Made by a program: the position numbers and the translations under genes. Positions 13,849 to 64,000 of a DNA stretch of 64,000 bases are shown here, one piece after another (the stretch's first letter is position 1; the number at the start of each line of letters is the position of its first letter). The notes under the pieces are model-generated. The model did not search any database. It was not told the origin of the DNA and saw nothing but the letters and a program-made list of their open reading frames with translations. Source of the stretch: Marinactinospora thermotolerans DSM 45154 (GTDB lineage: Bacteria; Actinomycetota; Actinomycetes; Streptosporangiales; Streptosporangiaceae); the NCBI RefSeq assembly GCF_900167435.1, contig NZ_FUWS01000003.1, positions 310,001-374,000 of the forward strand, read 5' to 3'.

Positions 13849-13853
13849 AAAAC

Positions 13854-17787: not shown

Positions 17788-17838
17788 ATTTACCACTCCA
17801 AGCGTAGTGCTTTGTCTGTCGTGGAACCATAGCGACAC

Positions 17839-18127: not shown

Positions 18128-18146
18128 TAAGGTTAGCCTTGCCTAT
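18128..18146. promoter_or_regulatory. IdeR/DmdR-type iron box
   Basis: TAAGGTTAGCCTTGCCTAT matches most of the actinobacterial iron-box consensus (TTAGGTTAGGCTAACCTAA), including the AGGTTAG half and CCTA at the other end. It lies 25 bp upstream of the binding-protein ATG, so iron-loaded IdeR/DmdR should repress this gene. Confidence 0.8.
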
Positions 18147-18171
18147 TTCAATGGGATGTGAGGCGGCCTAC

Positions 18172-19182
18172 ATGATCTTCCCGACGGCGTCGCCCCGGCG
18201 CGGCCGACGGTCCATAATGCCGGTGGCCGGGACGGGCGCCCTCGTTCTGCTCTCGGCGTGCGGCACGGCCGTGCCCACCGAGGACGAACGGCCGGCCGAG
18301 GGCTGGAGCTTCAGCGACGGCGCGGGCAACGAGGTGACCCTGGACGAGCACCCCCAGCGGGTCGTGGCCTACTCCGGCGTCGCCTCCGCCCTGTGGGACT
18401 ACGGCTACGAGGTCGTGGGCGTCTTCGGGCCGGTGACGACCGCCGGTGGACAGCCCGACCCGCAGATCGGGGACGTCGACACCGAGCGGGTCGAGGTCAT
18501 CAGCGAGACCTACGGCGAGATGAGCGTCGAAAAGCTCGCCTCCCTGGAACCCGACCTCATCGTCACCCACGCCTACGACGACCTCGCCTGGTACCTGCCC
18601 GAGGAGGTCGACCAGATCGAGGCCGTCGCCCCCCTCCTGCGGATCCAGGTCACCGGGGCCGGCGCGGAGGAACTGCTGGCCGACCACCTCGACCTCGCCG
18701 TCGCCCTGGGTGCCGACCCCCACGGCGAGGCCGTCGCCGGCGCCCTGCACGACTTCGACGCCTCCCTGGCGGAACTGTCCGCGGCCACCGAGGACAGGCC
18801 CGCCCTCAAGGTCGTCGCGGTCTCGGCCTCCCCCGAGAACCTCTACGTCGCCAACGCCGCGGCAGGCGGCGACCTGGAACTGTTCGCCGAACACGGGGTC
18901 CGCCTCCCCGAGACCGACGCCCCCGACACCGACCAGTTCGAGGAACTGAGCTGGGAGGAGGCCGACAAGTACCCCGCCGATCTGCTCCTCCAGGACTCCC
19001 GGCCCACCTCCACCCCCCTGGCCGACCTGGCCGACCAGCCGACCTGGCGCACCCTGCCCGCGGTCGAGGCCGGACAGGTCGGCGCCTGGGCCGCGGAGAC
19101 GCCCTACAGCTACACCCGCTACGCCGAGGTCGTGCGCGCCCTCGCCGCCGACATCAGCGAGGCCGAACCCCTGGAGCACTGA
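18172..19182 (+). CDS. Iron-siderophore ABC transporter substrate-binding lipoprotein
   Basis: 336 aa. The signal peptide ends in a lipobox, LVLLSACG (Cys near residue 30). The mature part starts with the usual Fe-siderophore binding fold, EHPQRVVAYSGVASALWDYG, and contains SLEPDLIVTHAYDDLAWYLP. This is the class III binding fold (PF01497) that captures ferric siderophore outside the membrane. ATG 18172 is chosen since GAGG lies 8 nt upstream and the iron box sits just ahead; ATG 18151 is possible. No importer permease or ATPase follows: the next genes are exporter-type ABC proteins. Confidence 0.87.
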   Translation: MIFPTASPRRGRRSIMPVAGTGALVLLSACGTAVPTEDERPAEGWSFSDGAGNEVTLDEHPQRVVAYSGVASALWDYGYEVVGVFGPVTTAGGQPDPQIGDVDTERVEVISETYGEMSVEKLASLEPDLIVTHAYDDLAWYLPEEVDQIEAVAPLLRIQVTGAGAEELLADHLDLAVALGADPHGEAVAGALHDFDASLAELSAATEDRPALKVVAVSASPENLYVANAAAGGDLELFAEHGVRLPETDAPDTDQFEELSWEEADKYPADLLLQDSRPTSTPLADLADQPTWRTLPAVEAGQVGAWAAETPYSYTRYAEVVRALAADISEAEPLEH

Positions 19183-19382
19183 ACCCCGGCGGACTTCTCC
19201 CGAATGCCCGGGAAACGGGAATCCGGGTTAGGTTCTCCTTGGTCGTGAAACGCCGAAACGGCCGGGGAGGGGCGGGCGCGACAGCGTCGTCCCCGCCCCG
19301 GCCCCACCCGAAGGGAAGGTCGCCCCGTGAACCCCCACCGTCAGCCCCGTCCGGCCCCGACCCCCGTGCCGGCGGGCCGGCG

Positions 19383-46359: not shown

Positions 46360-47634
46360 ATGGGCCGGCTGAGGGTGAGCGGGATCCGTGAGGTCAAAGG
46401 CGTGGTCCGGGTGCCGGGGGACAAGTCGGTGTCGCATCGGGCGCTGATCCTGTCCTCCCTCGCGGAGGGCGTCAGCACGATCAGCGGGCTGTCCGGCGGG
46501 GAGGACGTCGCCGCCACCCGTCGCGCCCTGGTCCGGATGGGCGCGGACATCACGGTGGACGGCGCGCTGGTGCGGGTCGAGGGCGGAGTGCGCGAACCCG
46601 ACGACGTGCTCGACTGCGGTAACGCCGGGACGGGCATCCGCCTCCTGGCGGGGATGTGCGCGGGCATCGACGGGGTGAGCGTGCTGACCGGCGACCGGTA
46701 CCTGCGCCGCCGCCCCATGGACCGGATCGCGGTGCCACTGCGGCGGATGGGGGCCCACGTCGACGGCAGGGAGAACGGCAGGGTCGCCCCGCTGGTGGTG
46801 CGCGGGGGCGGCCTGCGCGGCATCACCTACGCCTCCCCGGTGGCCTCGGCCCAGGTCAAGTCCAGTCTCCTGCTGGCCGGCCTGTCCGCGCAGGGGTCCA
46901 CCACGGTGATCGAACCCCATCCGACCCGTCGCCACACCGAGGAGATGCTCACCGCCTTCGGCGTCCGGGTCGAGGTGCGGGAGGAGCGGGTGACCGTCCA
47001 TCCCGGGCCGCTCACGGCCACCGACGTCGCCGTGCCGGGAGATCCGTCGCAGGCGGCGTTCTGGGTGGTGGCCGGCCTGCTCGGCGGCGAGGTCGAGGTC
47101 CCGGGCCTGTACCTGGGGCATGGCCGTGCCGGGTTCCTCGACGTGCTGTCGCGGATGGGGGCCGACCTGGACGTGGACCCCGCGACGGGGACGGTGCGGG
47201 CGCGCGCGTCCAGGCTGCGCGGGGCCGACCTGGAGGCGTCCCATGTTCCCGGCGTGGTGGACGAGATCCCGATCCTGGCCGTGGCCGCCGCCGCGGCCGA
47301 GGGGTCCACGATCATCTCCGGCGCGGCGGAGCTACGGGTCAAGGAGTCCGACCGGATCGCCTCCACGGTGGCGATGCTGCGCGCCTTCGGGGTGGCGGCC
47401 GAGGAACGCCCTGACGGGATGGTGATCCACGGCCGTCCGGCGTTCACCCCGGCCGAGGTGGACTCCCGCGGCGACCACCGCATCGCGATGGCCGCCGCGG
47501 TGGCCGCCATCGCCCGCGCCGAGGGCGACACCGCGATCGCGGGGTGGGAGGCGGTGGCCACCTCCTATCCCGGCTTCGCCGAGGACCTGGTGGGCGTGGC
47601 CGGGGCGGGGGCGTGCGCCCCGGCCGACGGCTAA
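46360..47634 (+). CDS. aroA: 3-phosphoshikimate 1-carboxyvinyltransferase (EPSP synthase)
   Basis: 424 aa, normal length. Motifs: VPGDKSVSHRALILSSLAEG at the N-terminus, LDCGNAGTGIRLLAG, RRRPMDRIAVPLRRMGA, VDEIPILAVAAAAAEG with the catalytic Asp, LRVKESDRIASTV and SRGDHRIAMA. It joins shikimate-3-phosphate and PEP in the pathway to chorismate. It lies next to the DHB metallophore genes, which consume chorismate through isochorismate, so it may supply precursor. A housekeeping copy elsewhere would support that idea but is not visible. Confidence 0.94.
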   Translation: MGRLRVSGIREVKGVVRVPGDKSVSHRALILSSLAEGVSTISGLSGGEDVAATRRALVRMGADITVDGALVRVEGGVREPDDVLDCGNAGTGIRLLAGMCAGIDGVSVLTGDRYLRRRPMDRIAVPLRRMGAHVDGRENGRVAPLVVRGGGLRGITYASPVASAQVKSSLLLAGLSAQGSTTVIEPHPTRRHTEEMLTAFGVRVEVREERVTVHPGPLTATDVAVPGDPSQAAFWVVAGLLGGEVEVPGLYLGHGRAGFLDVLSRMGADLDVDPATGTVRARASRLRGADLEASHVPGVVDEIPILAVAAAAAEGSTIISGAAELRVKESDRIASTVAMLRAFGVAAEERPDGMVIHGRPAFTPAEVDSRGDHRIAMAAAVAAIARAEGDTAIAGWEAVATSYPGFAEDLVGVAGAGACAPADG

Positions 47635-48122: not shown

Positions 48123-48137
48123 TGAAAATGATTATCT
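48123..48137. promoter_or_regulatory. Zur-type box upstream of the DHB dehydrogenase gene
   Basis: TGAAAATGATTATCT matches the reverse complement of the aztAB box (TGAAAATCATTATCA) at 13 of 15 positions. It lies 30 bp upstream of GTG 48168 in a locally AT-rich stretch. Its layout differs from the iron box at 18128. Confidence 0.7.
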
Positions 48138-48167: not shown

Positions 48168-48971
48168 GTGCCGTCCGCGATGGGCGAGCAGGTGGAAGAG
48201 CCCGGCGCGCGTCAGGTCGCGCTGGTGACCGGCGCCTGTGGTGGGATCGGCGCGGCCGTCGTCCGCGGTCTCGTCGCGCGCGGTGCGGCCGTGGCGGCCC
48301 TCGACCGCGACGGCCACGGCGTCCGGGAGCTCGCCGCCTCCCTCGCTGAGGAGGGCGCCGAGGTGCTGCCCTTTTCCGTCGACGTCGCCGACCGCGTCGC
48401 CGTCGAGGAGGCCGTGGCCCGGGCGGAGGCGCAGGCCGGCCCCCTGACCTCGGCCGTCAACGTGGCCGGCATCCTGTCGCCGGGTTCGGCCCTGGAACCG
48501 GCCGAGGACGCCTGGCGCACCGCCTTCGAGGTCAACACCCTCGGCGTGGTCAACGTCTCCACCGCCGTGGCCCGACGGATGGTCCCGCGCCGCTCGGGGG
48601 CGATCGTCACGGTCGGTTCCGACGCCGCCCGCATCGCCCGCATCGACATGGCGGCCTACGCCGCGACCAAGGCCGCGGCGGCGCGCTTCACCATGTGCCT
48701 CGGCCTGGAACTGGCCCCCCACGGCGTCAGATGCAACGTCGTCTCGCCGGGCTCGACCGACACCCCGATGCGGCGGCTGCTGTGGGGCGACGACGGCGGC
48801 GCCGGTTCCGTCGCCGGCGCCCCCGAACGCTTCCGGGTGGGCATCCCCCTGGGGCGTATCGCCGACCCCGCCGACATCGCCGCCGCGGTCCTGTTCCTCC
48901 TCTCCCCGCAGGCGCGCCACATCACCATGCACGACCTGCACGTCGACGGGGGAGTGGGGCTCGGCCTCTGA
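48168..48971 (+). CDS. 2,3-dihydro-2,3-dihydroxybenzoate dehydrogenase
   Basis: 267 aa short-chain dehydrogenase of the EntA/DhbA type. NAD-binding [16 protein letters not shown] near residue 20, NVAGILSPG, catalytic Ser in [17 protein letters not shown] with Tyr-x3-Lys (YAATK), and [11 protein letters not shown]. It oxidises 2,3-dihydro-DHB to 2,3-dihydroxybenzoate, the last step after isochorismatase. GTG 48168 or ATG 48180 are both possible. The isochorismatase and the AMP ligase follow, so function is well supported; isochorismate synthase is not in this window. Confidence 0.87.
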
Positions 48972-49065: not shown

Positions 49066-49734
49066 ATGACACCCCGATCAGGGAGCGATCACTCGTCGGC
49101 GCTGCCGGGCATCGCCGCCTACCCCATGCCCGCCGAGGACGACATCCCGGCCCCACGTGTCGGATGGAGCATCGACACCGACAGGTGCGCGCTCCTGGTC
49201 CACGACATGCAGAACTACTTCCTCAACGCCTTCCAGCGCGACGCCGAGCCGATCCCGGAGCTGACCGCCAACATCGCCGCGCTGCTGGAGGGCAGCGCCC
49301 GCCACGGGGTGCCACGGATCTACACCGTACAGCCGGGCTCCCAGGAACCGGCCCGGCGCGGCCTGCTGCGTGATTTCTGGGGCGAGGGGCTGCGCGACGA
49401 GGCCGCCCACACCTCCATCCCGCAGGAGCTGGCGCCGGCGCCGGAAGACACCGTGCTGGCCAAGCACCGCTACAGCGCCTTCGCGCGCAGCGACCTCCAG
49501 GGCGTGCTGCGCCGCATGGGACGCGACCAGCTGGTCATCTGCGGTGTCTACGCCCACATCGGCGTGCTCATGACGGCCTGCGACGCTTTCATGCGCGACA
49601 TCGAGACGTTCGTCGTGGCCGACGCGGTCGCCGACTTCTCCGCGGAGGACCACGCGATGGCGCTGTCCTATGCCGCGCGCCGCTGTGCCGTCCCGATGAG
49701 CACCCGCGCGGCGCTGGCCGCCCTCGACGGCTGA
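49066..49734 (+). CDS. Isochorismatase (stand-alone, no carrier domain)
   Basis: 222 aa. The Asp in [15 protein letters not shown], the Lys in [10 protein letters not shown] and the Cys-free [20 protein letters not shown] are isochorismatase catalytic marks (EntB/DhbB type). It hydrolyses isochorismate to 2,3-dihydro-2,3-dihydroxybenzoate. Classical EntB proteins carry a C-terminal aryl carrier domain; here the protein stops after the hydrolase domain, and the aryl carrier domain is at the N-terminus of the NRPS at 52271. GGAAGG precedes ATG 49066. Confidence 0.9.
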
Positions 49735-50488: not shown

Positions 50489-52141
50489 TCACCCCGCGCC
50501 GGCCGTGGGGGAGGGGACCGTCGGCGTGAGGCCGGCGACGTCGGCGCGCAGCCGCCTCTTGTCGACCTTGCCGATCCCGGTCAGGGGCAATTTGGGGACC
50601 GCGCGCACCTCGTCGGGAACCTTGAACGCCGCCAGGCCGCGCTCCAGCAGCAGCCGGCGCACCTCGGAGCGTGAGGGGCAGGGCGCGTCGGTCTCCAGGA
50701 ACGCCACCGAGCGTTCGCCCAGCTGCGGATCCGGCACGCCCACCAGCGCGGCGGCGCGCACGTCGGGCAGCGCGAGCAGGTGCTCCTCGACCTCGATGGC
50801 CGCGATCTTCTCCCCGGCCCGGTTGACCTGGTCCTTGATCCGGCCCACCACGACGAGGTCGCCGCGCGCCGTGCGCACCACGAGGTCGCCGGTGCGGTAG
50901 AAGCCGTCGGGGGTGAAGGAGAGGCGGTCGTGTTCCGGCGCCCGGTAGTAGCCGCGCAGGGTGTAGGGGCCGCGGGTCAGCAGTTCGCCGGGGTGTCCCG
51001 GCGGGACCGGACGGCCCTCCTCGTCGACGACGAGGATCTCGTCGGCGGGGGAGAGCGGGCGGCCCTGGGTCGTACAGACGACCTCCTCGGGGTCGTCCAG
51101 ACGGGTGTAGTTGTTCAGCCCCTCGGCCATGCCGAACACCTGTTGGAGCCGGCAGCCCAGTTCCGGCCCGACCCGCCGCGCGGTCGCGTCGTCCAGCCGG
51201 GAGCCGCCGACCTGGAGGACCCGCAGGCTGCTCAGATCGCGGGAGGTGCGGCGGGCCTCGTCGAGCCAGTGGGGGACCAGCGACGGGACGAGCGCGGTGA
51301 TCGTCACCCCCTCGGCCTCGACCAAGGTGAAGGCCGTGGTGGGGCTGGGGTCGGGGCACAGCACCACCGTCCCGCCGGCGGCGAGGGTACCGACGATCCC
51401 CGGCGAGACCATCGTGAAGTTGTGCGTGACCGGCAGGACGGCGAGGTAGACCGTGTGCTCGTCCAGGGCGCAGACCTCGGCCGAGGCGCGGGCGTTGTAG
51501 TCGTAGTCGGCGTGGGTGCGCGGGATGAGCTTGGGCGTGCCCGTGGTGCCGCCCGACAGCAGTAGCAGGGCGGGGTCACCGGGCGCGGCTCCGCTCGTGA
51601 CCGCGGGGGCCTCGGCGCCCGCCCGCTCCAGCGCGGCCAGGGAGTGCCCCCCACCGGGGCCGGGGTCGCCCGCGACGACGAGGTGGCGTAGCGACGGGCA
51701 GGCGCGCGCCACCTCGGCCGCGCCCGTCCGGGGGTCGTTGCGTCCGCGCCCCTGGGCGACGACGTGCGCGGTGGCGCCGGACAGCCGGGCCAGCGCGGTC
51801 AGCTCGGTCGTGCCCAGGGAGGGCAGGGCCAGGATCGGCAGCGCGCCGATCCGCAGCAGGGCGAAGAGCGTGACCACGTACTCCTCGCGGTTGGGGAGCT
51901 GGAGCAGCACCCGGTCGCCCCGGTGGATCGGGAGCCCGGCCAGCCCGGCGGCCAGCCGGCCGGCGCGCTCGTCGAGGTCGGCGTAGCTCAGCCGTCCGGA
52001 TGCCGAGACCAGCGCCGTGCGGTCGCCGTGCTCGGCGGCGCGCTCCCGGAGCAGGTCGTCCAGGGTGCGGTCACGCCAGTAGCCGGCGCGCCGGTATCCG
52101 GCCGCGGTCTCCTCGGGCCAGCCGATCACGTCGCTTCTCAT
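50489..52141 (-). CDS. 2,3-dihydroxybenzoate-AMP ligase
   Basis: 550 aa adenylating enzyme of the EntE/DhbE/YbtE family. The P-loop is LLLLSGGTTGTPKLIPRTH near residue 195. The aryl pocket segment LPVTHNFTMVSPG places Asn241 and Ser246 at the DhbE Asn235/Ser240 positions; salicylate enzymes (MbtA, YbtE type) tend to have Cys at the second. This favours 2,3-DHB. C-terminal Lys is in LTGIGKVDKRRL. ATG 52141 has GGGAG 6 nt upstream. It activates DHB and loads it on the NRPS aryl carrier domain. It is divergent from the NRPS gene with a Zur-type box between. Confidence 0.9.
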   Translation of the reverse strand: MRSDVIGWPEETAAGYRRAGYWRDRTLDDLLRERAAEHGDRTALVSASGRLSYADLDERAGRLAAGLAGLPIHRGDRVLLQLPNREEYVVTLFALLRIGALPILALPSLGTTELTALARLSGATAHVVAQGRGRNDPRTGAAEVARACPSLRHLVVAGDPGPGGGHSLAALERAGAEAPAVTSGAAPGDPALLLLSGGTTGTPKLIPRTHADYDYNARASAEVCALDEHTVYLAVLPVTHNFTMVSPGIVGTLAAGGTVVLCPDPSPTTAFTLVEAEGVTITALVPSLVPHWLDEARRTSRDLSSLRVLQVGGSRLDDATARRVGPELGCRLQQVFGMAEGLNNYTRLDDPEEVVCTTQGRPLSPADEILVVDEEGRPVPPGHPGELLTRGPYTLRGYYRAPEHDRLSFTPDGFYRTGDLVVRTARGDLVVVGRIKDQVNRAGEKIAAIEVEEHLLALPDVRAAALVGVPDPQLGERSVAFLETDAPCPSRSEVRRLLLERGLAAFKVPDEVRAVPKLPLTGIGKVDKRRLRADVAGLTPTVPSPTAGAG

Positions 52142-52214: not shown

Positions 52215-52229
52215 TGAAAACGGTTATCA
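52215..52229. promoter_or_regulatory. Zur-type box in the AMP-ligase/NRPS divergent promoter
   Basis: TGAAAACGGTTATCA is a 7-1-7 near-palindrome with one mismatch, of the same class as the aztAB box. It lies in the 129-bp gap between divergent starts and could repress both arms. Confidence 0.75.
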
Positions 52230-52270: not shown

Positions 52271-55200
52271 GTGTCGGGTCAGGGACGGGCTTTCGCCGGA
52301 GAGGTCCGCGCGAGGGTCGCGGAGATCATCGGCACGGACGACTTCGCCGACGGCGACGACCTCTTCGACCACGGTCTGGACTCCCTCGGCCTGATCCGGC
52401 TCGCCGGGACATGGCGCGAGCAGGGGGCCGAGATCACCTTCGCGGACCTCGCGGCCGAGCCCACCGTCCGGGCCTGGACCGAACTGCTGGAGACCGCCCC
52501 CGCCCCGGCCCCGGCCACCACGCGGACGCCGGCCGAGGACGAGCCGTTCGAACTGGCCACGATGCAGCACGCCTACTGGATCGGCCGCCAGGACGAGCAG
52601 CCGCTGGGCGGGGTCGCCGCGCACTTCTACACCGAGTTCGACGGCCACGGGGTGGAGCCCGCCCGGCTCACCGCCGCCGTCGCCGCGGTCGTCGAACGCC
52701 ACCCCATGCTGCGCGCGCGCTTCCTCGACGACGGGCGTCAGCGGATCGTCCCGCCGGGCGGCCCGGTTCCCGTCACCGTCCACGACCTGCGCGACCTGCC
52801 GGCCGCGGCGGTGCGAGAACGCCTCGACGCGATCCGGGACGACGCCACCCACCGGCGCATGGACGTCGCCTCGGGGCGGGTCCTCGACGTCGCGCTGTCC
52901 CTGCTGCCGGACGGGGCGACACGGCTGCACGTCGACCTCGACATGATCGTGGCCGACGCGCTCAGCCTGCGTGTCCTGCTCGACGACCTCGTGGCCGCCT
53001 ACGACGGGCGCCCCCTGCCGCCCCTGGAGTACGGCTTCGCCCGCTACCTGGCCGAACGGGCCTCACGCGACACCGCGGCCAGGCAACGCGACCGCGCCTG
53101 GTGGCACGGGCGGCTGGGCGACCTGCCCGCCCCACCCGAGCTGCCCACCGTGATCGACGCCTCCCGGCCCACCCCCGCCGGCTCGGAGTACGCCCGCTCC
53201 ACCCGCCTGCACCACCGGCTCGACCCCGAACGGGCGCGCCGGCTGACCGAACGCGCCCGCGCCGCAGGCGTCACCCCCGCCGCCGCGCTGGCCGCCGCCT
53301 TCGCCGAGGCGCTGGGCGGCTGGAGCGGCGCGCCCCGCTTCCTGCTCAACCTGCCCCTGTTCGACCGCGCGCCCCTGCACCCCGACATCGACCAGGTCAT
53401 CGGCGACTTCAGCGGGTCGGTGCTGCTGGCCGCCGACGTCGAGGGCGACCTCCCCTTCACCGAGCGGGCCGAACGGATCCAGCGCGAGTTGCACCAGGCC
53501 ATCGGCCACGGCGCCTACAGCGGTGTCGAGGTGCTGCGCGACCTCGCCCGCGCCGCGGGCGGTACCCCCGTCCTGGCCCCCGTCGTCTACACCAGCGCGA
53601 TCGGCCTGGGCCCCCTGTTCACCCGCGCCGTGCAGGAGTGCTTCGGCCGGCCCACCTGGATCATCTCCCAGGGGCCGCAGGTGTGGCTGGACGCCCAGGT
53701 GACCGAGTTGGACGGCGGCCTGCTGCTCAACTGGGACGCGCGCGAGAAGGTCTTCGCCCCGGGGGTCTTGGAATCGGCGTTCGCCGCCTACCGCGACCTC
53801 GTCGACGCGCTCGTGGACGACCCCGACACCTGGCGGCGGCCCTTCACCACGCCGGGCCGTCCCGAGATCGTCGGCGCGTCCTCCCCGCTCCCGCAGGCGC
53901 GTCCGCTGCACGGGAGGTTCTTCTCCCACGCCCGCCGCGCCCCCGACGCCACCGCGCTGGTCGCCTCGGACGGCACCACCCTGTCCTACGGGGAGCTCGC
54001 CGCGCGGGCCCTGCGCGTCGCCGGCGCCGTCGCGGCGCGGCTGCCGGTGGGCGGCACCGTCGCGGTCGACCTGCCTAGGGGCTTCGACCAGGTCGCCGCG
54101 GTGCTGGGGGTCCTGGCCGCCGGATGCGCCTACCTTCCGGTGGGCCGGGAGCAGCCTCCCGCGCGCCGCGCGCGCGTCATCGGCGTCGGGGGCGCCGGAC
54201 TCGTCCTGGCCCAAGACGCCCACGCCCCCGGCGAGGGGGACGACGCGCCGCCGGTCCTCGCCGTCGCCGACGCCCTGGCCGCCCCGCCCCTGGCCGCCCC
54301 CCGCGACACCGACCCCGACGCGGTGGCCTACGTGCTCTTCACCTCCGGGTCCACGGGGGTGCCCAAGGGGGTGGAGGTGGCGCACCGGGCCGCCGCCCAC
54401 ACCATCGACGTGCTCGCCGAGATCGTCGGGTTCGGCGCGTCCGACCGCACGCTCGCCCTCGCCGAACCCGACTTCGACATGTCGGTCTACGACCTGTTCG
54501 CGCCGCTGTCGGCCGGTGGCGCCGCGGTCCTCGTCGAGGGCGACGCCCGCCGCGACGCCACCCGATGGGCCGACACGGCCGCGCGCGGCGGCGTGACGAT
54601 CCTCAACTGTGTCCCCGCGCTGCTCGACCTGCTGCTGTCGGCGGCCGAGGCCGACATGGCGCCGATGCCGCCGCTGCGCGCGGTCCTGCTCGGCGGCGAC
54701 CGGGTCGGCGTGGACCTGCCCGGCCGGCTGGGCGCGCTCGCCCCCGGCTGCCGCTTCCTCGCCCTGGGCGGCATGACCGAGGCCGCCATCCACTCCACCC
54801 TCCAAGAGGTGGAGCGGGTCGACCCCGCGTGGCGCTCGATCCCGTGGGGACGGCCGTTGCCGGGGGTGGCCTGCCGGGTCGTGGACGCGCGCGAGCGCGA
54901 CCGCCCCGACCACGCCGTGGGGGAGCTGTGGGTCGGCGGCGCCGGACTGGCCCTCGGCTACCGCGGCGACCCCGACACGACCGCCGACCGGTTCGTCGTG
55001 CGCGACGGACGGCGCTGGTACCGCACGGGCGATCTGGTCCGCCGCCTGCCCGACGGGACGCTGGACTTCCTCGGCCGCGCCGACCACCAGGTCAAGGTCC
55101 GCGGCGTGCGCGTCGAGCTCGGCGAGGTCGAGGCCGCCCTGACCGCCCACCCCGACATCGCCGGCGCGGTCGCGCTGGTGCTGCCCGACCCCGCGCCGCG

Positions 55201-58200
55201 CCTGGTGGCGGCCGTCACCGCGGCCCCCGACGCCACGGGCGACCCGGCCGCCGCGGCGGCCGGCCACGCCGGTTCCCTGCTGCCCGCGTCGATGCTGCCC
55301 GAGCGGATCGTCACCCTGCCCGAGATCCCCCTGACCGCCAACGGCAAGCCCGACCGCGCCGCCGTCGTCCGCGCGGTGCGCGCCCGCGCGGACGCGGCCA
55401 CCACCCCCTCGGCGGCGCCCTCCGGCCCGGTCGAGGCCGCCGTCGCCCGGGTGTGGGCTGACCTGCTCGGCCGGTCGCGGGTGGGGCGCGACGACGACTT
55501 CTTCGCTCTGGGCGGCGATTCACTGCTGGCCACGCGGGTGGTCGCGGCGCTGCGGGAGGAGGGCTACGCCGACGCCGGCGTCGGCCGCCTGTTCGCCTCC
55601 CCCGTCCTGCGCGACTTCGCCGCCGCCCTCGCCCCCCAGGTCGAGGGCCGGCGCGCGGCCCGGGTCGAACCGGACCCCGACCACGCCCACGACCCGTTCC
55701 CGCCCACCGAGGTGCAGCGCGCCTACCTGACCGGGCGCAGCCCCGAACTCCCGCTCGGTGGCGTCGGCACCCACCACTACACCGAGTTCGACGGCGCCGA
55801 GGTGGACCTGGACCGGCTGGAACACGCCTGGAACGTCCTGGTCCGCCGGCACGGGATGCTGCGGGCGGTCTTCGACGACGACGGCCGCCAGCGCGTCCTG
55901 CCCGAGGTGCCCCACGTCCGTATCCCCGTCACCGAGGCGGGGCCCGGCGACCCCGGCCACGCCCTGGCCGCGCTGCGCGAGGAGATGGCCCACCGCGTCT
56001 TCGAGCCCGGCCGCTGGCCCCTGTTCGACCTGCGCGCCGTCCGCTACGTCCGCGACGGCGTCGAGCGCACCCGCCTGGGGGTCGGCCTGGACTACCTCGT
56101 CCTGGACGCGCTGAGCATCATGACGCTCTACACCGAGCTGGGCCGCCTCTACACCGACCCCGACACCGTCCTCGACCCGATCGACGTGACCTTCCGCGAC
56201 TACGTCACCCAGGTCCACGACGACCCCGCGGCCGTGGAGCGCGCCCGCGACTACTGGCGCGAGCGCGCCGTGCAACTGCCGCCGCCGCCCGCCCTGCCCC
56301 TGGCCACCGACCCCGCGACGGTCGCCACCCCCCGCTTCACCCGGCGCAGCGCCCGCCTGGACCCCGGGCAGTGGCGCGCCCTCACCGACCTCGCCCGCGG
56401 CGCCGGGATCACCCCGTCGACCCTGCTGCTCGCCTGCTACGCCGAGGTCCTGGGAGCCTGGAGCGGGCAGACCGCCCTGAGCCTGACCCTCACCCTGTTC
56501 AACCGCCACGACACCCACCCCCACATCTCCCGGGTCCTGGGCGACTTCACCTCGCTGTCGCTGACCTCCTACCGGCGCGACCCCGGCGAGAAGCTGCTGG
56601 ACGCCACCCGCTCCCTGCAACGGCGCATCGGCCGCGACCTCGACCACCGCGAGGCGTCGGCCCCCTGGGTGCTGCGCGACCTCGCCCAGCGCACCGGCGT
56701 CGCCCACACCGGCGTCCCCGTCGTCTTCACCAGCTCCCTCGGCCTGGGCGGCGACGTCTCCATGGACCTTCCGCCCGCCTTCCCCGAACGGGTCTGGGGA
56801 CTGTCGCAGTCGCCCCAGGTCCACCTCGACAACCAGGTCCTGGAGATCGCGGGGGGCCTCCAGGTCTACTGGGACGCGGTGGAGGAGCTGTTCCGCCCCG
56901 ACGTCCTCGACGCCATGTTCGCCGCCTACCTGGAGACGCTGCGCCACCTGGCGCGCACCGGCCGGATCGCGGCGCCACCGGACCTCCTGCCCGCCCGGCA
57001 GCGCGAGGAGCGCCGGCAGGCCAACGCCACGAGGGGGCCGGCCCCCCGAGGCCTGCTGCACGACGCGGTGTTCGCCCGCGCCGACCAGCGCGCCACCCGC
57101 CCCGCCGTCATCACCGACGACGGTGAGCTCACCCACGGTGAACTGGTCGAACGCGCCCTGCGCATGGCCGCGGGCCTGCGCCGCGCCGGCGTGGAGCCCG
57201 GCCAGGCCGTCGCGATCGGCCTGCCCAAGGGCGCCGACCAGGTCTGCGCCGTCCTGGGCGCGCTGGCGGCCGGGGCCGTCTACGTCCCGGTGGGACCCGA
57301 CCAGCCCGCGCGCCGGCGCGAGCGCATCCACCGCGCCGCGGGCGTCGTGCTGGCCATCGCCGAGGAGGCGACGTCGCCCGGCACCGTCACCCCCGCGCGG
57401 CTGCTGAGCGAACCCCCGCTGGAGGCGCCGGTCCGGCGCGACCCCGACGACACCGCCTACGTCATCTTCACCTCGGGCTCCAGCGGGGAGCCCAAGGGGG
57501 TGGAGGTCACCCACGCGGCGGCCCTCAACACCGTCACCGACATCAACGAACGTTACGGCGTCGGCCCCGACGACCGGGTGTTCGCCCTGTCCGCGCTCGA
57601 CTTCGACCTCTCCGTCTACGACCTGTTCGGCCTGCTCGGCGCGGGGGGCGCGCTCGTGCTGCCCGGCGAGGAGGAGCGCAGGGACGCCGCCAGATGGCGC
57701 GACCTGGCCGAACGGCACCGGGTGACCGTCTGGAACACCGTGCCCGCCCTGCTCGACATGCTGCTGCTCGCCGCCCAGGACGGCCCCGTTCCCCCGGACC
57801 TGCGCCTGGCCCTGGTCTCCGGCGACTGGGTGGGCACCGACCTGGCGCCGCGGCTGCGCGAGGCCACCGGCGGGCGCGTCCGCCTCGTCGCGCTGGGCGG
57901 GGCCACCGAGGCGGCGATCTGGTCCAACGCCTTCGACGGGGGGCACGCCCCCGAGGGGTGGCCCTCGGTCCCCTATGGGCGCCCGTTGCGCAACCAGCGC
58001 TACCGCGTCGTCGATCCGCACGGCCGCGACTGCCCCGAGTGGGTGCCCGGAGAACTGTGGATCGGCGGCGCCGGGGTGGCCCTGGGCTACCGGGGCGACC
58101 CCGACCGCACCGCCGACAGGTTCGTGACCGACGAGGGGGTGCGCTGGTACCGCACCGGCGACCTGGGCCGCTACCGGCCGGGGGCCCTGCTGGAGTTCCT

Positions 58201-58798
58201 CGGCCGCGCCGACCGGCAGGTCAAGATCGGCGGTCACCGCCTGGAACCGGGCGAGGTGGAGGCCGCGCTGGAGGACCACCCGGCCGTGCGCCGGGCCGCC
58301 GTGGTCGCCTCGGGTCCGCGCGAGGCGCGTCGCCTCGTCGCCTTCGTCGTCGCGCGCGGGGACGACGTCGCCCCCGGCGACCTCGCCGCGCACCTGGCCG
58401 ACCGGGTTCCGGCCCACGCCGTCCCCGCGCTGATCCACGTCCTGGCGGAATTGCCGCTCACCGCCAACGGCAAGGTCGACCTCGCCGCGCTCACCGAACG
58501 CGCCGGCGCGGCCGGCCCGCTCCCCCCGACCGCCGCGGCACCGCTGGGCGACGACGTCGAACGCGAGATCGCGCGGGTGTGGAGCGAGCTGGTCGGGGTG
58601 CCGGTCGCCGACCGCGAGGCCAACTTCTTCACGCTGGGCGGCACCAGCCTGCTGGCCATCCGGATGATCACCACCGTGCGCGCCGTCCTCGGCGTGGAGG
58701 TCCCCACCCGTTCCTTCCTGGCCGCCCCCACCCTCGCCGCGCTCGCCGCCAGGGTCCGCGGCGCCGGAGGCGACCGGGGGGAGACCGGCGTGATCTGA
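52271..58798 (+). CDS. Non-ribosomal peptide synthetase, ArCP-Cy-A-PCP-Cy-A-PCP
   Basis: 2175 aa. Residues 1-80 are an aryl carrier domain with Ser38 in DHGLDSLGL. Cy1 follows (about 94-520; DMIVADALS at 224), then A1 (about 545-1040; YVLFTSGSTGVPKGV near 687), PCP1 (Ser1084 in GGDSL), Cy2 (about 1140-1580; DYLVLDALS at 1274), A2 (about 1597-2080) and PCP2 (Ser2126 in GGTSL). Both Cy domains hold DxxxxDxxS, so they condense and cyclise. A2 pocket residues read D-L-Y-N-L-S-L-I-W, the cysteine code; A1 reads D-M-Y-N-L-G-L-I-H, atypical. No epimerase or methyltransferase. It would build DHB-heterocycle-thiazoline. Confidence 0.9.
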   Translation: MSGQGRAFAGEVRARVAEIIGTDDFADGDDLFDHGLDSLGLIRLAGTWREQGAEITFADLAAEPTVRAWTELLETAPAPAPATTRTPAEDEPFELATMQHAYWIGRQDEQPLGGVAAHFYTEFDGHGVEPARLTAAVAAVVERHPMLRARFLDDGRQRIVPPGGPVPVTVHDLRDLPAAAVRERLDAIRDDATHRRMDVASGRVLDVALSLLPDGATRLHVDLDMIVADALSLRVLLDDLVAAYDGRPLPPLEYGFARYLAERASRDTAARQRDRAWWHGRLGDLPAPPELPTVIDASRPTPAGSEYARSTRLHHRLDPERARRLTERARAAGVTPAAALAAAFAEALGGWSGAPRFLLNLPLFDRAPLHPDIDQVIGDFSGSVLLAADVEGDLPFTERAERIQRELHQAIGHGAYSGVEVLRDLARAAGGTPVLAPVVYTSAIGLGPLFTRAVQECFGRPTWIISQGPQVWLDAQVTELDGGLLLNWDAREKVFAPGVLESAFAAYRDLVDALVDDPDTWRRPFTTPGRPEIVGASSPLPQARPLHGRFFSHARRAPDATALVASDGTTLSYGELAARALRVAGAVAARLPVGGTVAVDLPRGFDQVAAVLGVLAAGCAYLPVGREQPPARRARVIGVGGAGLVLAQDAHAPGEGDDAPPVLAVADALAAPPLAAPRDTDPDAVAYVLFTSGSTGVPKGVEVAHRAAAHTIDVLAEIVGFGASDRTLALAEPDFDMSVYDLFAPLSAGGAAVLVEGDARRDATRWADTAARGGVTILNCVPALLDLLLSAAEADMAPMPPLRAVLLGGDRVGVDLPGRLGALAPGCRFLALGGMTEAAIHSTLQEVERVDPAWRSIPWGRPLPGVACRVVDARERDRPDHAVGELWVGGAGLALGYRGDPDTTADRFVVRDGRRWYRTGDLVRRLPDGTLDFLGRADHQVKVRGVRVELGEVEAALTAHPDIAGAVALVLPDPAPRLVAAVTAAPDATGDPAAAAAGHAGSLLPASMLPERIVTLPEIPLTANGKPDRAAVVRAVRARADAATTPSAAPSGPVEAAVARVWADLLGRSRVGRDDDFFALGGDSLLATRVVAALREEGYADAGVGRLFASPVLRDFAAALAPQVEGRRAARVEPDPDHAHDPFPPTEVQRAYLTGRSPELPLGGVGTHHYTEFDGAEVDLDRLEHAWNVLVRRHGMLRAVFDDDGRQRVLPEVPHVRIPVTEAGPGDPGHALAALREEMAHRVFEPGRWPLFDLRAVRYVRDGVERTRLGVGLDYLVLDALSIMTLYTELGRLYTDPDTVLDPIDVTFRDYVTQVHDDPAAVERARDYWRERAVQLPPPPALPLATDPATVATPRFTRRSARLDPGQWRALTDLARGAGITPSTLLLACYAEVLGAWSGQTALSLTLTLFNRHDTHPHISRVLGDFTSLSLTSYRRDPGEKLLDATRSLQRRIGRDLDHREASAPWVLRDLAQRTGVAHTGVPVVFTSSLGLGGDVSMDLPPAFPERVWGLSQSPQVHLDNQVLEIAGGLQVYWDAVEELFRPDVLDAMFAAYLETLRHLARTGRIAAPPDLLPARQREERRQANATRGPAPRGLLHDAVFARADQRATRPAVITDDGELTHGELVERALRMAAGLRRAGVEPGQAVAIGLPKGADQVCAVLGALAAGAVYVPVGPDQPARRRERIHRAAGVVLAIAEEATSPGTVTPARLLSEPPLEAPVRRDPDDTAYVIFTSGSSGEPKGVEVTHAAALNTVTDINERYGVGPDDRVFALSALDFDLSVYDLFGLLGAGGALVLPGEEERRDAARWRDLAERHRVTVWNTVPALLDMLLLAAQDGPVPPDLRLALVSGDWVGTDLAPRLREATGGRVRLVALGGATEAAIWSNAFDGGHAPEGWPSVPYGRPLRNQRYRVVDPHGRDCPEWVPGELWIGGAGVALGYRGDPDRTADRFVTDEGVRWYRTGDLGRYRPGALLEFLGRADRQVKIGGHRLEPGEVEAALEDHPAVRRAAVVASGPREARRLVAFVVARGDDVAPGDLAAHLADRVPAHAVPALIHVLAELPLTANGKVDLAALTERAGAAGPLPPTAAAPLGDDVEREIARVWSELVGVPVADREANFFTLGGTSLLAIRMITTVRAVLGVEVPTRSFLAAPTLAALAARVRGAGGDRGETGVI

Positions 58799-58876: not shown

Positions 58877-61800
58877 GTGTCCGCCATCGACGACTCCACC
58901 GGCACACTCCCCGCGCTGCTGGCCGACCTGCGCGCCGACGGCGTCCACCTCTGGGAGGACGAGGGACGGATCCGGTTCCGCGCCCCCACCGGCACGCTCA
59001 CCGAGGAGCGCCGCGCGCTGCTGCGCGCCCACCGCGACGAGATCCTCGCCCTGCTCCGGGCCGAGGCCCGGCCCCGGCTGACCCCCGACCCCGCCGCGCG
59101 CCACGAGCCGTTCCCGCTCACCGACGTCCAGGGCGCCTACCTCGTCGGCCGCGGGACGGCCTACGACTACGGCGGCGTGGCCTGCCACGCCTACGCCGAG
59201 CTGGAGTTCGACGACCTGGACCCCGAACGGCTCCGCCGCGCCTGGGCCGCCCTGGTGGAACGCCACGACATGCTGCGCGTCGTCGTCGCGGCCGAGGGCC
59301 ACCAAAGCGTCCTGCCCGAAGCCCCCGGCGAGGCCCTGACCGTCACCGACGTGCGCGGCAGCGATACCACCGTCCACGTCGAGCGCGCCCGCGAACGGCT
59401 GCGCGACCTCGTCCCCGACCCGGGCACCTGGCCGCTGGTGCGCCTCCACCTCACCCGCGGCGACGACCGCAGTGTCCTGCACCTGTCGGTGGACCTGCTC
59501 GCCGCCGACTACGCGAGCGTGCGGATGCTCCTCGACGAGCTCGCCGCCCTCTACGCCGACCCCGACCACCCGCTGCCGCCCATCGGCGCGACCTTCCGCG
59601 ACTACGTGCTGGCCCAGCGCGCCCTCAAGGACGGTCCCGGCTACCACCGCGACCGCGCCTACTGGATGGAGCGGATCGAGGACCTGCCCCCCGCCCCCGA
59701 ACTGCCGCTGCGCGAGCGCGCCATCGACGCGCCCGCCCGCTTCACCCGCCACCGGGCCGCCCTGTCCGCCGCCGAATGGCGGGCCCTGCGCTCCCGGGCC
59801 GCCGAACACGGGCTCACCCCCTCGGCGGTCGCGCTGGCGGCCTACGCCGAGACGATCACGCGCTGGAGCCGCCGACCCGACTTCACGCTCAACCTCCCGG
59901 TGGCGCGGCGGCTGCCGCTGCACGAGGACGTCGACCGGATCGTCGGCGACTTCACCACCGTCACCCTGCTCGCGGTGCGCTCGGGTGACGGCGCGACCTT
60001 CGCCGAGCGCGCCCGGACCCGGCAGGGCCGGCTGATCGAGGACCTCGACCACGCCCTGTACTCGGGGGGCGAGGTGCTCGCCGAGCTGTCGCGCCGCCGC
60101 GACGAGCCCGCCGTGCTCATGCCGGTGGTCTTCACCGGCGCGATCGGCGCCGAGGAGCCCGACGCAGCGGGCGGGTCGTGGGCCTCCCGCGAGGTCCACG
60201 GCGTCAGCCAGACCCCGCAGGTGTGGGTGGACTGCCAGGTCTCCCTGGAAGAGGGCGGGCTCGGCGTGCGCTGGGACGTGCGCGAGGAGGTTCTGCCCGA
60301 GGGGGTCGCCGCCGACGCCTTCGCCGCCTACGTCGACCTGCTGCGCCGCCTCGCCGGCTCCGCCGACGTCTGGGAGGACGCCGACCCGGTCCGCGTCCCG
60401 CGCCACCAGCTCGACCTGCGCGCCGAGGTCAACGCGACCGCCGGCCCGCTGCCCGGCGGCCTGCTGCACGAGGGGGCCCTCGACGCCGCGCTGCGCACCC
60501 CCGACGCTCCCGCCGTCATCACCCCCGAGGGGACGACCAGCCACGGCGAGCTGTGGGCCCGCGCGGCCGCGGTCGCCGCCGTGCTCGCCGAGCGCGGCTG
60601 CCGTCCCGGCGACCGCGTGGCCATCGTCATGGACAAGGGGGTGGAGCAGGTCGTCGCCGCCTACGCCGTCCTGCTCGCCGGCGCCGCCTACGTTCCCATC
60701 GACATCGCCCAGCCGGCCCACCGGCGCCGCGTCATCCTCGCCGACGCCGGCATCCGCCACGTCCTCACCCAGTCCTGGCTCACCGGGATCGACGACTGGG
60801 CCGACACCGCCGAGCCGATCGCCGTGGACGCCGTTCCCGCCGGGCCGGCCCTCACCGCGCGGCCGCCGCGCGCCGCCGCGCCCGGCGATCTCGCCTACGT
60901 CATCTACACCTCCGGGTCCACCGGTGTGCCCAAGGGGGTGATGATCTCCCACCGGGCGGCCCTCAACACCGTCGCCGACGTCAACCGGCGCTTCGAGGTC
61001 GGACCCGGCGACCGGATCCTGGGGTTGGCCTCCCTCGGCTTCGACCTGTCGGTCTACGACCTGTTCGGCCCCCCGGCCGCGGGGGGAGCCCTCGTGCTGC
61101 CCTCCGCCGAGCGGCGCGGCGACCCCTCGCACTGGGCCGAGCTGGTCGCCGACCACGGCGTCACCCTGTGGAACTCCGTCCCCGCCCAGATGCAGATGCT
61201 GGACGACTACCTGGCCTCGGCGGGTGACGCGGACCTGCCCACGCTGCGCCTGGCCCTGCTGTCGGGTGACTGGATCCCGGTCACGCTGCCCGACCGCATC
61301 CGCGCCCGCGTCCCCGGCCTGTCGCTGGTGAGCCTGGGCGGCGCGACCGAGGCGGCCATCTGGTCCATCCACCACCCCATCGGCGAGGTGGACCCGGCCT
61401 GGCCGAGCATCCCCTACGGCCGTCCCCTCGCCAACCAGACCTTCCACGTCCTGGACGAGCGGATGAACGACCGCCCCGACTGGGTCGTCGGCGAGCTCTA
61501 CATCGGCGGGGCCGGGGTGGCGCTGGGCTACCTCGGTGATGAGGCCAGGACCGCCGAACGGTTCGTCACCCACCCCCGCACCGGGGAGCGCCTGTACCGC
61601 ACCGGTGACCTGGGCCGCTACCGGCCCGGCGGCGACATCGAGTTCCTGGGCCGGGAGGACTCCCAGGTCAAGGTCCGCGGCCACCGCATCGAGCTCGCCG
61701 AGATCGAGGCGGCGCTGCTGGCCCACCCGGGCGCGGCCGCCGCGGCGGTCCTCGCGGTGGGCGACCGCGACTCCCGCAGGCTCGCGGCGTTCGTCGAGAC

Positions 61801-64000
61801 CGCGCGCCGCGACCACCCCGCCGAGGACACCACGGCCCCGGCCGCCCGCGCCCGCGCGGCGGCCGAGACGGCCACCGCGGGACTGGACCGCGCCGACCTG
61901 GGCGTCTTCCTCGACGCGATGGACGAGGCCGCGCTGGCCGCGATCACCCGCACCCTCACCGGCGCGGGCCTGTTCGCCGAGGGGGCATCCCACACCCGCG
62001 CGGAGGTCGCCGCGGCCCTGCGCGCCGACCGCCGCCACCACCGCCTCGTCCGGCGCTGGCTGGACGCCCTGCTGCGCGCCGGACGCCTCGGCGAGCAGGA
62101 CGGCCGGCTCGTCGGGCTGCGCCCGGTCGGCGAGGAGGAGGCGCGGCGGGCCTGGGAACGGCTGGCCGAGCTGGAACGGCGCGTGGACTACGGCACCGAG
62201 GTCCTCGACTACATGCGCGCCTGCGCCGAGCACCTGCCCGAACTGCTCAGCGGCGAACTCGACGTGCGCACGCTGCTGTTCCCCGGCGCCGGCCTGGACA
62301 CCGCCGGCGCGGCCTACCGCGACAACCTCGCCATCCGCCACCTCAACGCCGCCGCGGCGGCGGCGCTGCGCGAGGTCGCCGCGGCGCGCACCGGCGAGGA
62401 GCCGCTGCGGGTCCTGGAGATCGGCGCCGGCGTGGGCGGCAGCACCGCCGAGATCGTCCCGGCGCTGGCCGGGCACGACGTCGAGTACCTGTTCACCGAC
62501 ATCTCGCCGTTCTTCCTCACCGAGGCACGCGAACAGTTCGCGGCCTTCCCCTGGGTCTCCTACGGGCTGTTCGACGTCAACCGCGACATCGGCGACCAGG
62601 GGCACGCCCCCAACTCCTTCGACGTGGTCGTCGCCGCCAACGTCGTGCACAACGCCATCGACGCCGACGCGGCCCTGCGCCGCCTCCGCGAGCTGCTCGT
62701 CCCCGGCGGCCACCTCGTCCTCATCGAGACGACCCGGGAGCACAACCCGTCCCTGCTCGTCTCCATGGAGTTCCTCGACGGATTGGACGGCGGCCACCAC
62801 GACGCGCGGGCCGCCGCCGACCAGACCTTCCTCACCCGCGAGCAGTGGGCCGCCGCGCTCGCCGGCGCCGGGGCCGTCACCGACCTGGTCCTGCCCGGCG
62901 ACGACGACGGCCTGGCCCGCACCGGGCAGAGCCTCTACCTGGCCCGGTTCAAGACCGACCGGCAACCGCTCACGGCCGGCGAACTGGCCCGCCACGTCGC
63001 GGCCCGGCTGCCCGACTACATGGTCCCGGCCCAGTGGCGGATCCTCGACGCGCTCCCGTTGACCGGCAACGGCAAGGTGGACCGCGCCGCGCTGGCGGCG
63101 GCCCTGCCGCGCGAGGACACCCCGACCGCCGTCGCGGCCCTGCCCGCCGAGCCCGCCGACGACCTGGAACGCGCCCTGGCCGACCTGTGGGCCGGCCTGC
63201 TGGAGCGCGAGCACGTCGGCCGCGACGACGACTTCTTCGCCCTGGGCGGGGACTCGCTGCTGGTCGCGCGCATGGTGGGCCGGCTGGGCGAGGCCGTCCC
63301 GGGCGTCGGCGACATCGAGTGGGAGGTGGTGCTGCGCCACATGCTGCGCCGTCCCACCGTGGCGGGCCTGGCCGCCTACCTGCGTGACCGCGCCACCCCG
63401 CACCGCGGCGCGGACGCCGCGCCGGCCGGCCCCTACGTGGCGCTCAACGGTCCGGGCGGCGGCACGGTGACGGCGCTCGTCCACGCCGGGACCGGGACGC
63501 TGGTCCCCTACCGGGCGCTGATCACCGAGATCCGGCGCAGGTCGGCCGGCGCTACGACCCTGGCCGGACTGGAACTGCCCGATGTGCCGGTGTTCTTGGA
63601 GGCCGATCCCGCCACCGTCATCACCCGGTGGGCGGCCGACTACGCCCACGCGCTGCTGGAACAGGGCGGGCGGCGCTTCCACGTGGTCGGCTACTGTCTG
63701 GGCGGGCTGGTGGCGACCGAGGTCGCGCGCACCCTCGCCGAGGCCGGCGCCGAGGTCGCCTCGCTCACCGCGATCAGCACCCACCGCCCGCCCTTCCGCC
63801 TCGACGACGAGCTGATCTCGGAGTACGCCTTCGCGGTCATGATGGGCATCGACCCGGTGGCCGTGGGCTTCCCCGCCGACGAGAACCGGGTCTCGGCCGC
63901 CTCCGATGTGCTGCTGGAACGGACCCCCGGCCTGCTGCCCGACGGCGCCATCGGCGAACTGACCGGCGAGTACGCCGACGTCGCCGCCTGCTTCCGGGCC
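58877..64000 (+). CDS. NRPS, docking-Cy-A(MT)-PCP-TE, partial at window end
   Basis: Open from GTG 58877 (GAGG 8 nt upstream) to the edge: 1708 codons and no stop. Residues 1-55 resemble a TubC-type docking domain. Cy3 is at about 75-490 with DLLAADYAS at 206. The A domain (530-1400; YVIYTSGSTGVPKGV near 674) has the cysteine pocket D-L-Y-N-L-S-L-I-W. A methyltransferase is inserted between its halves (about 1050-1320), SAM motif VLEIGAGVGGST. PCP3 has Ser1460 in GGDSL. The final thioesterase has GYCLGG, Cys1607 at the nucleophile position. It adds, cyclises and methylates a third heterocycle, then releases the product. Confidence 0.88.
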   Translation, partial: MSAIDDSTGTLPALLADLRADGVHLWEDEGRIRFRAPTGTLTEERRALLRAHRDEILALLRAEARPRLTPDPAARHEPFPLTDVQGAYLVGRGTAYDYGGVACHAYAELEFDDLDPERLRRAWAALVERHDMLRVVVAAEGHQSVLPEAPGEALTVTDVRGSDTTVHVERARERLRDLVPDPGTWPLVRLHLTRGDDRSVLHLSVDLLAADYASVRMLLDELAALYADPDHPLPPIGATFRDYVLAQRALKDGPGYHRDRAYWMERIEDLPPAPELPLRERAIDAPARFTRHRAALSAAEWRALRSRAAEHGLTPSAVALAAYAETITRWSRRPDFTLNLPVARRLPLHEDVDRIVGDFTTVTLLAVRSGDGATFAERARTRQGRLIEDLDHALYSGGEVLAELSRRRDEPAVLMPVVFTGAIGAEEPDAAGGSWASREVHGVSQTPQVWVDCQVSLEEGGLGVRWDVREEVLPEGVAADAFAAYVDLLRRLAGSADVWEDADPVRVPRHQLDLRAEVNATAGPLPGGLLHEGALDAALRTPDAPAVITPEGTTSHGELWARAAAVAAVLAERGCRPGDRVAIVMDKGVEQVVAAYAVLLAGAAYVPIDIAQPAHRRRVILADAGIRHVLTQSWLTGIDDWADTAEPIAVDAVPAGPALTARPPRAAAPGDLAYVIYTSGSTGVPKGVMISHRAALNTVADVNRRFEVGPGDRILGLASLGFDLSVYDLFGPPAAGGALVLPSAERRGDPSHWAELVADHGVTLWNSVPAQMQMLDDYLASAGDADLPTLRLALLSGDWIPVTLPDRIRARVPGLSLVSLGGATEAAIWSIHHPIGEVDPAWPSIPYGRPLANQTFHVLDERMNDRPDWVVGELYIGGAGVALGYLGDEARTAERFVTHPRTGERLYRTGDLGRYRPGGDIEFLGREDSQVKVRGHRIELAEIEAALLAHPGAAAAAVLAVGDRDSRRLAAFVETARRDHPAEDTTAPAARARAAAETATAGLDRADLGVFLDAMDEAALAAITRTLTGAGLFAEGASHTRAEVAAALRADRRHHRLVRRWLDALLRAGRLGEQDGRLVGLRPVGEEEARRAWERLAELERRVDYGTEVLDYMRACAEHLPELLSGELDVRTLLFPGAGLDTAGAAYRDNLAIRHLNAAAAAALREVAAARTGEEPLRVLEIGAGVGGSTAEIVPALAGHDVEYLFTDISPFFLTEAREQFAAFPWVSYGLFDVNRDIGDQGHAPNSFDVVVAANVVHNAIDADAALRRLRELLVPGGHLVLIETTREHNPSLLVSMEFLDGLDGGHHDARAAADQTFLTREQWAAALAGAGAVTDLVLPGDDDGLARTGQSLYLARFKTDRQPLTAGELARHVAARLPDYMVPAQWRILDALPLTGNGKVDRAALAAALPREDTPTAVAALPAEPADDLERALADLWAGLLEREHVGRDDDFFALGGDSLLVARMVGRLGEAVPGVGDIEWEVVLRHMLRRPTVAGLAAYLRDRATPHRGADAAPAGPYVALNGPGGGTVTALVHAGTGTLVPYRALITEIRRRSAGATTLAGLELPDVPVFLEADPATVITRWAADYAHALLEQGGRRFHVVGYCLGGLVATEVARTLAEAGAEVASLTAISTHRPPFRLDDELISEYAFAVMMGIDPVAVGFPADENRVSAASDVLLERTPGLLPDGAIGELTGEYADVAACFRA

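Follow-up and report, generated by a model that had tools for sequence, protein, structure and literature searches.

Pocket, phylogeny and gene content point to a serine-type first adenylation domain in a coelibactin/sorangibactin-like synthetase of Marinactinospora thermotolerans

A stretch of 64,000 nt from Marinactinospora thermotolerans DSM 45154 (contig NZ_FUWS01000003.1, positions 310,001–374,000; hereafter, the window) encodes a nonribosomal peptide synthetase (NRPS) line in which the first of three adenylation (A) domains, A1, has a specificity pocket different from that of the other two, which show the cysteine (Cys) code. This locus raises the question of which amino acid A1 activates, and with which ring its product begins. 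The pocket, phylogeny, gene content and Zur-box-like sites observed here make it very likely that A1 activates L-serine (less likely L-threonine), giving a 2,3-dihydroxybenzoate (DHB)-oxazoline start to a coelibactin/sorangibactin-type metallophore that would be made under Zur control. The NRPS genes and the domains in question are these (ArCP, aryl carrier protein; Cy, cyclization domain; PCP, peptidyl carrier protein; MT, methyltransferase; TE, thioesterase):

52271–58798, + strand: NRPS1, ArCP-Cy1-A1-PCP-Cy2-A2-PCP; open frame of 2175 aa with three PP-binding, two Condensation and two AMP-binding Pfam matches
52547–53890 (borders approximate), + strand: Cy1, with DMIVADALS as the DxxxxD motif; included in the Cy tree
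about 53903–55390, + strand: A1, pocket DMYNLGLIH by motif and alignment reading
D54476, M54479, Y54488, N54605, L54686, G54692, L54764, I54788, H54791: A1 pocket residues, with the first base of each codon
57053–58500, + strand: A2, pocket DLYNLSLIW (Cys code)
58877–64000, + strand, extending beyond the window: NRPS2, TubC_N-Cy3-A3(MT insert)-PCP-TE; A3 pocket DLYNLSLIW; TE motif GYCLGG

The location of A1 and the contrast between its pocket and that of A2 and A3 had been described from the sequence alone, and both held: the codes agreed whether read by motif position or from alignment columns anchored on those motifs. Residue numbers (301, 331 and so on) follow what we take to be the usual A4/A5 motif mapping, PheA itself lying outside the alignment. 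As a control, the same columns returned DVWHFSLVD, the canonical Ser code, in other NRPSs of this genome. PchE (7EMY) and BmdB (7LY7), both of the Cys type, have S301/W331 where A1 has Gly/His, and the pocket positions are free of gaps in the alignment. Core motifs A3, A5, A7, A8 and A10 are all kept in A1, ruling out pocket decay as the cause of its code, and chance is ruled out by the occurrence of the Gly301/His331 pair in all the 37 multi-module relatives described below. The contrast between the pockets is genuine and meaningful. A literature search with six pocket-code strings gave no match, which says little because codes are seldom printed as words.

Scanning named genomes with NRPS1 yielded 80 loci, comprising 37 multi-module relatives, 42 loci with a single Cy-A-type module, and one (L076) truncated before its NRPS; close relatives are favored in this set because the scan used six short query peptides, one of them from A1 (DFDMSVYD). 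The genus Marinactinospora was represented by the genome of the window alone. The first A domain conforms to xxxxxGL[IV]H in 37/37 multi-module relatives, of which 36 have two A domains on NRPS1 and one (L026) has three, and the second is Cys-code or decayed; no second or third A domain among these 37 ends in His. A1 is mostly DLWQLGLVH in the Streptomyces relatives, including S. olivaceus NRRL B-3009 (L082). In each of the 42 single-module loci, termed MbtB/NbtF-like from their genera, gene order and Lys-type neighbors rather than by individual annotation, one A domain only has a pocket that ends in His, and no pocket ends in Trp. Gly301 is present in 41 of them; in the remaining one, L064 from Mycobacterium helveticum, the MbtB-like pocket DLYSMCLVH has Cys for Gly at 301.

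A plasmid search independent of the query peptides, from which we took seven records among the matches listed (40 of 2587), returned both kinds of pocket. The Cys code is that of the first post-starter A domain in plasmids from Pseudoalteromonas (L091), Vibrio lentus (L092) and Azospirillum (L094), and in a Shinella plasmid (L095) every one of the three NRPS genes shows it; these four lines are related to that of the window, the number of modules not being identical. The first A domain is of the Gly301/His331 (G/H) type in plasmids from Pantoea (L090) and Streptomyces NBC_00727 (L096), and a Pseudonocardia plasmid (L093) carries a single module of this type. In the latter plasmid (11439–19316), a second NRPS gene contains a further A domain, DFFSVGLVH, likewise with a GLVH end. 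The plasmid of Pantoea sp. At-9b encodes a three-module NRPS (11884–21465) with DLYSMGLIH twice ahead of Cys A domains, an arrangement that suggests two consecutive oxazolines.

In a quick tree of 88 A-domain rows, A1 grouped with MbtB-like domains (support 92, not starred), apart from A2 and A3. The careful tree was built from 73 rows after removal of the nine pocket columns with two neighbors on either side; with respect to the quick tree, 11 plasmid rows were added, and 2 Lys-type domains, 7 A2 rows (of which five were decayed), 11 A3 rows and 6 other NRPS domains (L003, with the canonical Ser code, being one) were dropped. The classes were labeled by residue 331, whose own column was among those removed. 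All 39 His331-type domains formed one group (bootstrap 99; SH-like approximate likelihood ratio test, SH-aLRT, 98), recovered in 99% of 200 bootstrap trees, apart from the 30 Cys-code and 4 canonical Ser domains; A1 thus groups with Ser/Thr-type Cy-partnered A domains also outside the pocket. The Cys-code domains, in turn, did not form a single group (two changes). The check proposed by the sequence-only reading was whether A1 would fall among Cys domains, and in both trees it stood apart from them. Sharp separation of the classes in the 73-row set was limited to three alignment columns, two of which are pocket positions: 301 (Gly in 38/39 His331-type versus Ser in 30/30 Cys-code domains) and 331 (His in 39/39 versus Trp in 30/30), the latter being the column on which the class labels rest. 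The third, after motif A7, has Ala in 34/39 versus Gly in 30/30, and Val in A1 of the window. In a tree of 68 Cy domains, where one A3 row was left out as too short, those ahead of His331-type A domains also fell in one group (38/39, SH-aLRT 98), the exception being that of the second Pantoea module.

Yersiniabactin- and pyochelin-type lines share the ArCP-Cy-A logic and have Cys-derived rings; they differ from the window line in that their first ring also comes from Cys, PchE having S301/W331. That A1 is an ordinary Cys domain with a relaxed pocket, yielding a first thiazoline as in those compounds, is very improbable. This would agree with the six of nine pocket positions at which A1 equals the Cys code, and with the fact that antiSMASH called all three A domains of the sorangibactin NRPSs as Cys (PMC10127202); for the first of them, SrbC A1, the call is contradicted by a feeding experiment in which labeled serine was incorporated (PMC10127202). 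Additionally, all 30 Cys-code domains in the tree, a set labeled by residue 331, have Ser301 and Trp331 where A1 has Gly and His, and A1 lies outside them once the pocket columns are removed. Showing neither the S301/W331 pocket nor a grouping with Cys-code domains, A1 instead has the G301/H331 pocket of MbtB, NbtF and coelibactin A1. Judged on these sequence comparisons, the most likely substrate of A1 is a beta-hydroxy amino acid and, therefore, ring 1 is very probably an oxazoline; the pocket, the relatives and the tree all favor the earlier suggestion of a Ser/Thr-derived ring rather than a thiazoline.

The choice between these two amino acids is less clear-cut. The classical Thr code likewise includes Gly and His, and activation of L-threonine, leading to a 5-methyl-oxazoline as drawn for coelibactin, is unlikely but deserves consideration. 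Coelibactin is predicted to contain a methylated dihydrooxazole (PMC10127202), mupirochelin is predicted to use Thr (PMC10080011), and Nocardia gamkensis NBRC 108242, whose NbtF-like pocket (L081) we found to be DAYNTGLIH, makes a methyloxazole according to mass spectrometry and cluster analysis (PMC7413640). Nevertheless, the same pocket occurs in N. cyriacigeorgica EML 446 (L087), a species in which another strain, GUH-2, is said to give a non-methylated ring (PMC7413640). The same source connects NbtF homologs with oxazol(in)es derived from Ser or Thr, ring methylation depending on the preference of the A domain; N. araoensis (pocket DLYNIGLIH, L065) has a serine-derived ring, although its nocobactin cluster is described as nearly identical with the one in N. 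farcinica, where Thr was proposed as the substrate of NbtF. We gave up distinguishing Ser from Thr by the nine-residue code alone because DAYNTGLIH is found in Nocardia species with and without the methyl group (in one case from a different strain), and also because of this discrepancy between N. araoensis and N. farcinica. Other evidence speaks against threonine: sorangibactin is serine-derived by feeding, and the oxazoline that forms ring B of the tetroazolemycins from S. olivaceus FXJ8.012 carries a CH2, as expected of serine (PMC3707159); moreover, at the positions of Ala and Thr in DAYNT domains, A1 has the bulky residues Met236 and Leu299, which may disfavor the same substrate. Serine is the likelier substrate of A1 because the better-documented products favor it.

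Another hydroxylated or non-proteinogenic amino acid, such as 2-methylserine, is the least probable substrate. It is brought up by 6LTA, the next solved relative of A1, named in the structure comparison only as a nonribosomal peptide synthetase and probably FmoA3, a Cy-A enzyme acting on an amino acid of this type; however, 6LTA keeps Ser301 and Trp331 in the same alignment, unlike A1, and no gene for the biosynthesis of such an amino acid was noticed among the genes scanned with NCBIfam and Pfam models.

Several points weigh against L-serine as the substrate of A1 in this pathway type. The six pocket residues shared with the Cys code and the predictions for coelibactin and mupirochelin have been mentioned. 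In addition, only part of the MbtB/NbtF-like domains have a known product, the tetroazolemycins are linked to the S. olivaceus cluster by species only, and the likeness to SrbC is one of domain order and gene content. Position in the line accounts for part of the sorting in the Cy tree, and for this reason the phylogeny of Cy1 is weak as independent proof. The G/H-type Pantoea line lacks a P450 match (see below), and we found in the literature no assay of this enzyme or of its nearest clade.

The architecture of the line is that of the coelibactin/sorangibactin type: NRPS1 is CP-Cy-A-CP-Cy-A-CP and NRPS2, Cy-A-MT-CP-TE. NRPS2, which starts with TubC_N as a docking domain, ends at the equivalent of position 64363 when completed from the same contig (locus L009), and its TE has the GYCLGG motif, with a Cys nucleophile. 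Among the 37 multi-module relatives, this motif is GYC[LV]GG in 32, GYSVGG in one and unmatched in four (L012, L016, L058, L067). The GYSVGG line, from Nocardia carnea (L026, 19687–25755), has a Ser nucleophile and otherwise resembles those with a Cys-type TE.

The sorangibactin srb system resembles the present cluster in its pair of seven- and five-domain NRPSs (SrbC/SrbD) with an MT in the last module, its Cys-nucleophile TE, and the presence of a saccharopine dehydrogenase-like (SacDH-like) protein, a thiazolinyl imine reductase, a methyltransferase and a CYP105N1-like P450, serine entering ring 1 despite the Cys prediction (PMC10127202). It differs in using a salicylate starter, with a salicylate synthase, where the window has DHB genes and Zur-box-like sites. 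The coelibactin cluster of Streptomyces coelicolor (SCO7676-92), a locus not among our 80, is likewise similar in its predicted aryl-oxazoline, its P450 CYP105N1 and its reported Zur control, but its ring is predicted to be methylated; coelibactin was predicted in 2002, and we found no report of its isolation in the literature. The MbtB/NbtF phenyloxazoline synthases of mycobactin and nocobactin are similar to A1 in their Cy-A module type, GLIH pocket end, and use of Ser/Thr to form an oxazoline; they consist of one module feeding a lysine hydroxamate line, whereas in the window two Cys modules follow. The tetroazolemycins and spoxazomicins of S. olivaceus, with a hydroxyphenyl-oxazoline-N-methylthiazolidine and a further sulfur-bearing part, resemble the predicted product but are phenols, the latter being a predicted catechol (PMC3707159); the portion of that paper available names no cluster.

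The initial impression that such a chain would be unusual did not hold. An aryl-oxazoline followed by Cys-derived rings is the predicted coelibactin type, and the same order was demonstrated for sorangibactin by serine feeding (PMC10127202) and is seen in the tetroazolemycins (PMC3707159). The A1 pocket is thus the norm for the coelibactin/sorangibactin family and not a surprise and, because a Ser-type first A domain is the norm there, the window line is a further example of a known pathway type. Less usual are its DHB starter genes and Zur-box-like sites. The DHB starter, already proposed from the sequence, is supported by three genes, listed here with a neighbor:

46360–47634, + strand: aroA (5-enolpyruvylshikimate-3-phosphate synthase), just upstream and only a candidate cluster member; TIGR01356, 381 bits (cut-off 287)
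48168–48971, + strand: entA/dhbA, 2,3-dihydro-2,3-DHB dehydrogenase; TIGR04316 equivalog, 312.4 bits (cut-off 300), and 295.1 bits with a second such model, NF006074, below its cut-off of 312
49066–49734, + strand: entB-like isochorismatase; PF00857, 144 bits, with no NCBIfam model above cut-off and no carrier domain found in the Pfam/NCBIfam search
50489–52141, − strand: entE-like aryl-AMP ligase, probably for 2,3-DHB; TIGR02275, 642.8 bits, below the cut-off of 723.55

A salicylate starter was thus not found in the window; we treat DHB in its place as a variant because the starter does not define the NRPS type, although others may judge otherwise. The genome has four chorismate-binding matches, none of them inside the cluster. 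A second region with NRPS-like matches adjoins one of these genes (G000:C15, approximately 1299–9638) and is a possible source of isochorismate for the cluster. Both entA and entB occur in 6 of the 37 relatives (L010, L011, L021, L025, L068, L080), from four Nocardiopsis, Streptomonospora mangrovi and Glycomyces fuscus; the trees included five of them, L080 being left out. Because no more than 10 kb past the match was examined, failure to find these genes in the other 31 does not prove their absence.

Downstream of the NRPS genes follow genes for the SacDH-like protein, a thiazolinyl imine reductase (332 bits, cut-off 189), a type II thioesterase, a methyltransferase and two ABC exporter frames; further genes encode a cytochrome P450, a ferredoxin-like frame and an oligopeptide-type importer, the exporters and the ferredoxin-like frame being assigned by eye. 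The best solved match of the P450 is 3TYW (478 bits, versus 364 for the next), named as CYP105N1 in PMC3430247. The cluster region thus contains the SacDH-like protein, the imine reductase and the CYP105N1-near P450 together. A P450 match was found in the examined locus DNA of 29 of the 37 relatives, 25 at at least 50% identity and four at 31–33%, and none in that of L012 and L029. The six DHB-type relatives, none among these 29, have the P450 in their genomes at 74–80% identity, just past the examined locus DNA in five, the position in L025 not having been placed. At 1e-40, there was no P450 match in any of five whole plasmid records, the four Cys-code lines and Pantoea L090; since the latter is of the G/H type, the P450 is not a strict partner of a G/H-type A1. 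In the sorangibactin pathway, the compound remaining after P450 deletion was proposed to be the oxazoline (PMC10127202).

Two sites close to these genes, given without strand, bear on regulation:

48123–48137: Zur-box-like palindrome with one mismatch, upstream of entA
52215–52229: Zur-box-like palindrome TGAAAACGGTTATCA, between entE (−) and NRPS1 (+), compared with the motif published in PMC5472717

The site at 52215 fits the published actinobacterial Zur motif, taaTGaNAANNNTTNtCANta, and coelibactin is Zur-repressed in S. coelicolor (both PMC5472717). Allowing at most one mismatch, TGAWAANNNTTWTCA occurs three times in the 64 kb (3548, 48123 and 52215) and in none of 100 shuffles, a control that is not blind because the pattern was written after the sites had been seen. 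Four relatives (L010, L025, L068, L080) have TGAAAACGGTTTTCA at the corresponding place. The site at 3548 lies between the zinc importer genes aztA and aztB, within a zinc-related block (977–7868), approximately 45 kb from the NRPS genes, that contains aztA, aztB, aztC and aztD (model matches above cut-off), a ribosomal S14 gene and a gene for a Fur-like regulator, for which every model match fell below cut-off. The sites before entA and NRPS1 suggest a zinc-controlled metallophore.

For substrate, ring chemistry, release, metal and regulation we infer the following route. The entE product would load 2,3-DHB onto the N-terminal carrier, and Cy1 would join it to the amino acid held on PCP1, presumably serine, and close the aryl-oxazoline. 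Modules 2 and 3 would add two cysteines, and the resulting rings would undergo N-methylation as well as reduction by the thiazolinyl imine reductase; the P450 encoded downstream may oxidize the oxazoline to an oxazole, and the Cys-type TE would release the chain as a coelibactin/sorangibactin-type metallophore made under Zur control. In all eight loci with DMYNLGLVH as A1 (L017, L019, L024, L027, L028, L041, L069, L070), A2 is decayed: it has an altered loop in motif A3 and lacks both the Asp of A7 and the Lys of A10, and its pocket has changed in 7/8. In these loci, the third A domain, a Cys domain, probably loads both Cys carriers; in yersiniabactin, a single A domain loads the Cys carriers.

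It is an evenly balanced proposition that the window and its six DHB-type relatives represent a distinct 2,3-DHB-primed, Zur-controlled, coelibactin-type clade, making a putative catechol-oxazoline (or oxazole)-bis-thiazolidine zincophore, in which G301/H331 would be a switch from Cys to Ser. A limited literature search found no description of a DHB-primed zincophore of this type, which may already have been reported. The Gly301/His331 pair would serve as a two-residue marker to sort aryl-oxazoline from aryl-thiazoline lines and to correct Cys calls made by software. The presence of Zur-box-like sites next to DHB starter genes points to a second zinc-linked product, with a different chemistry, to look for.

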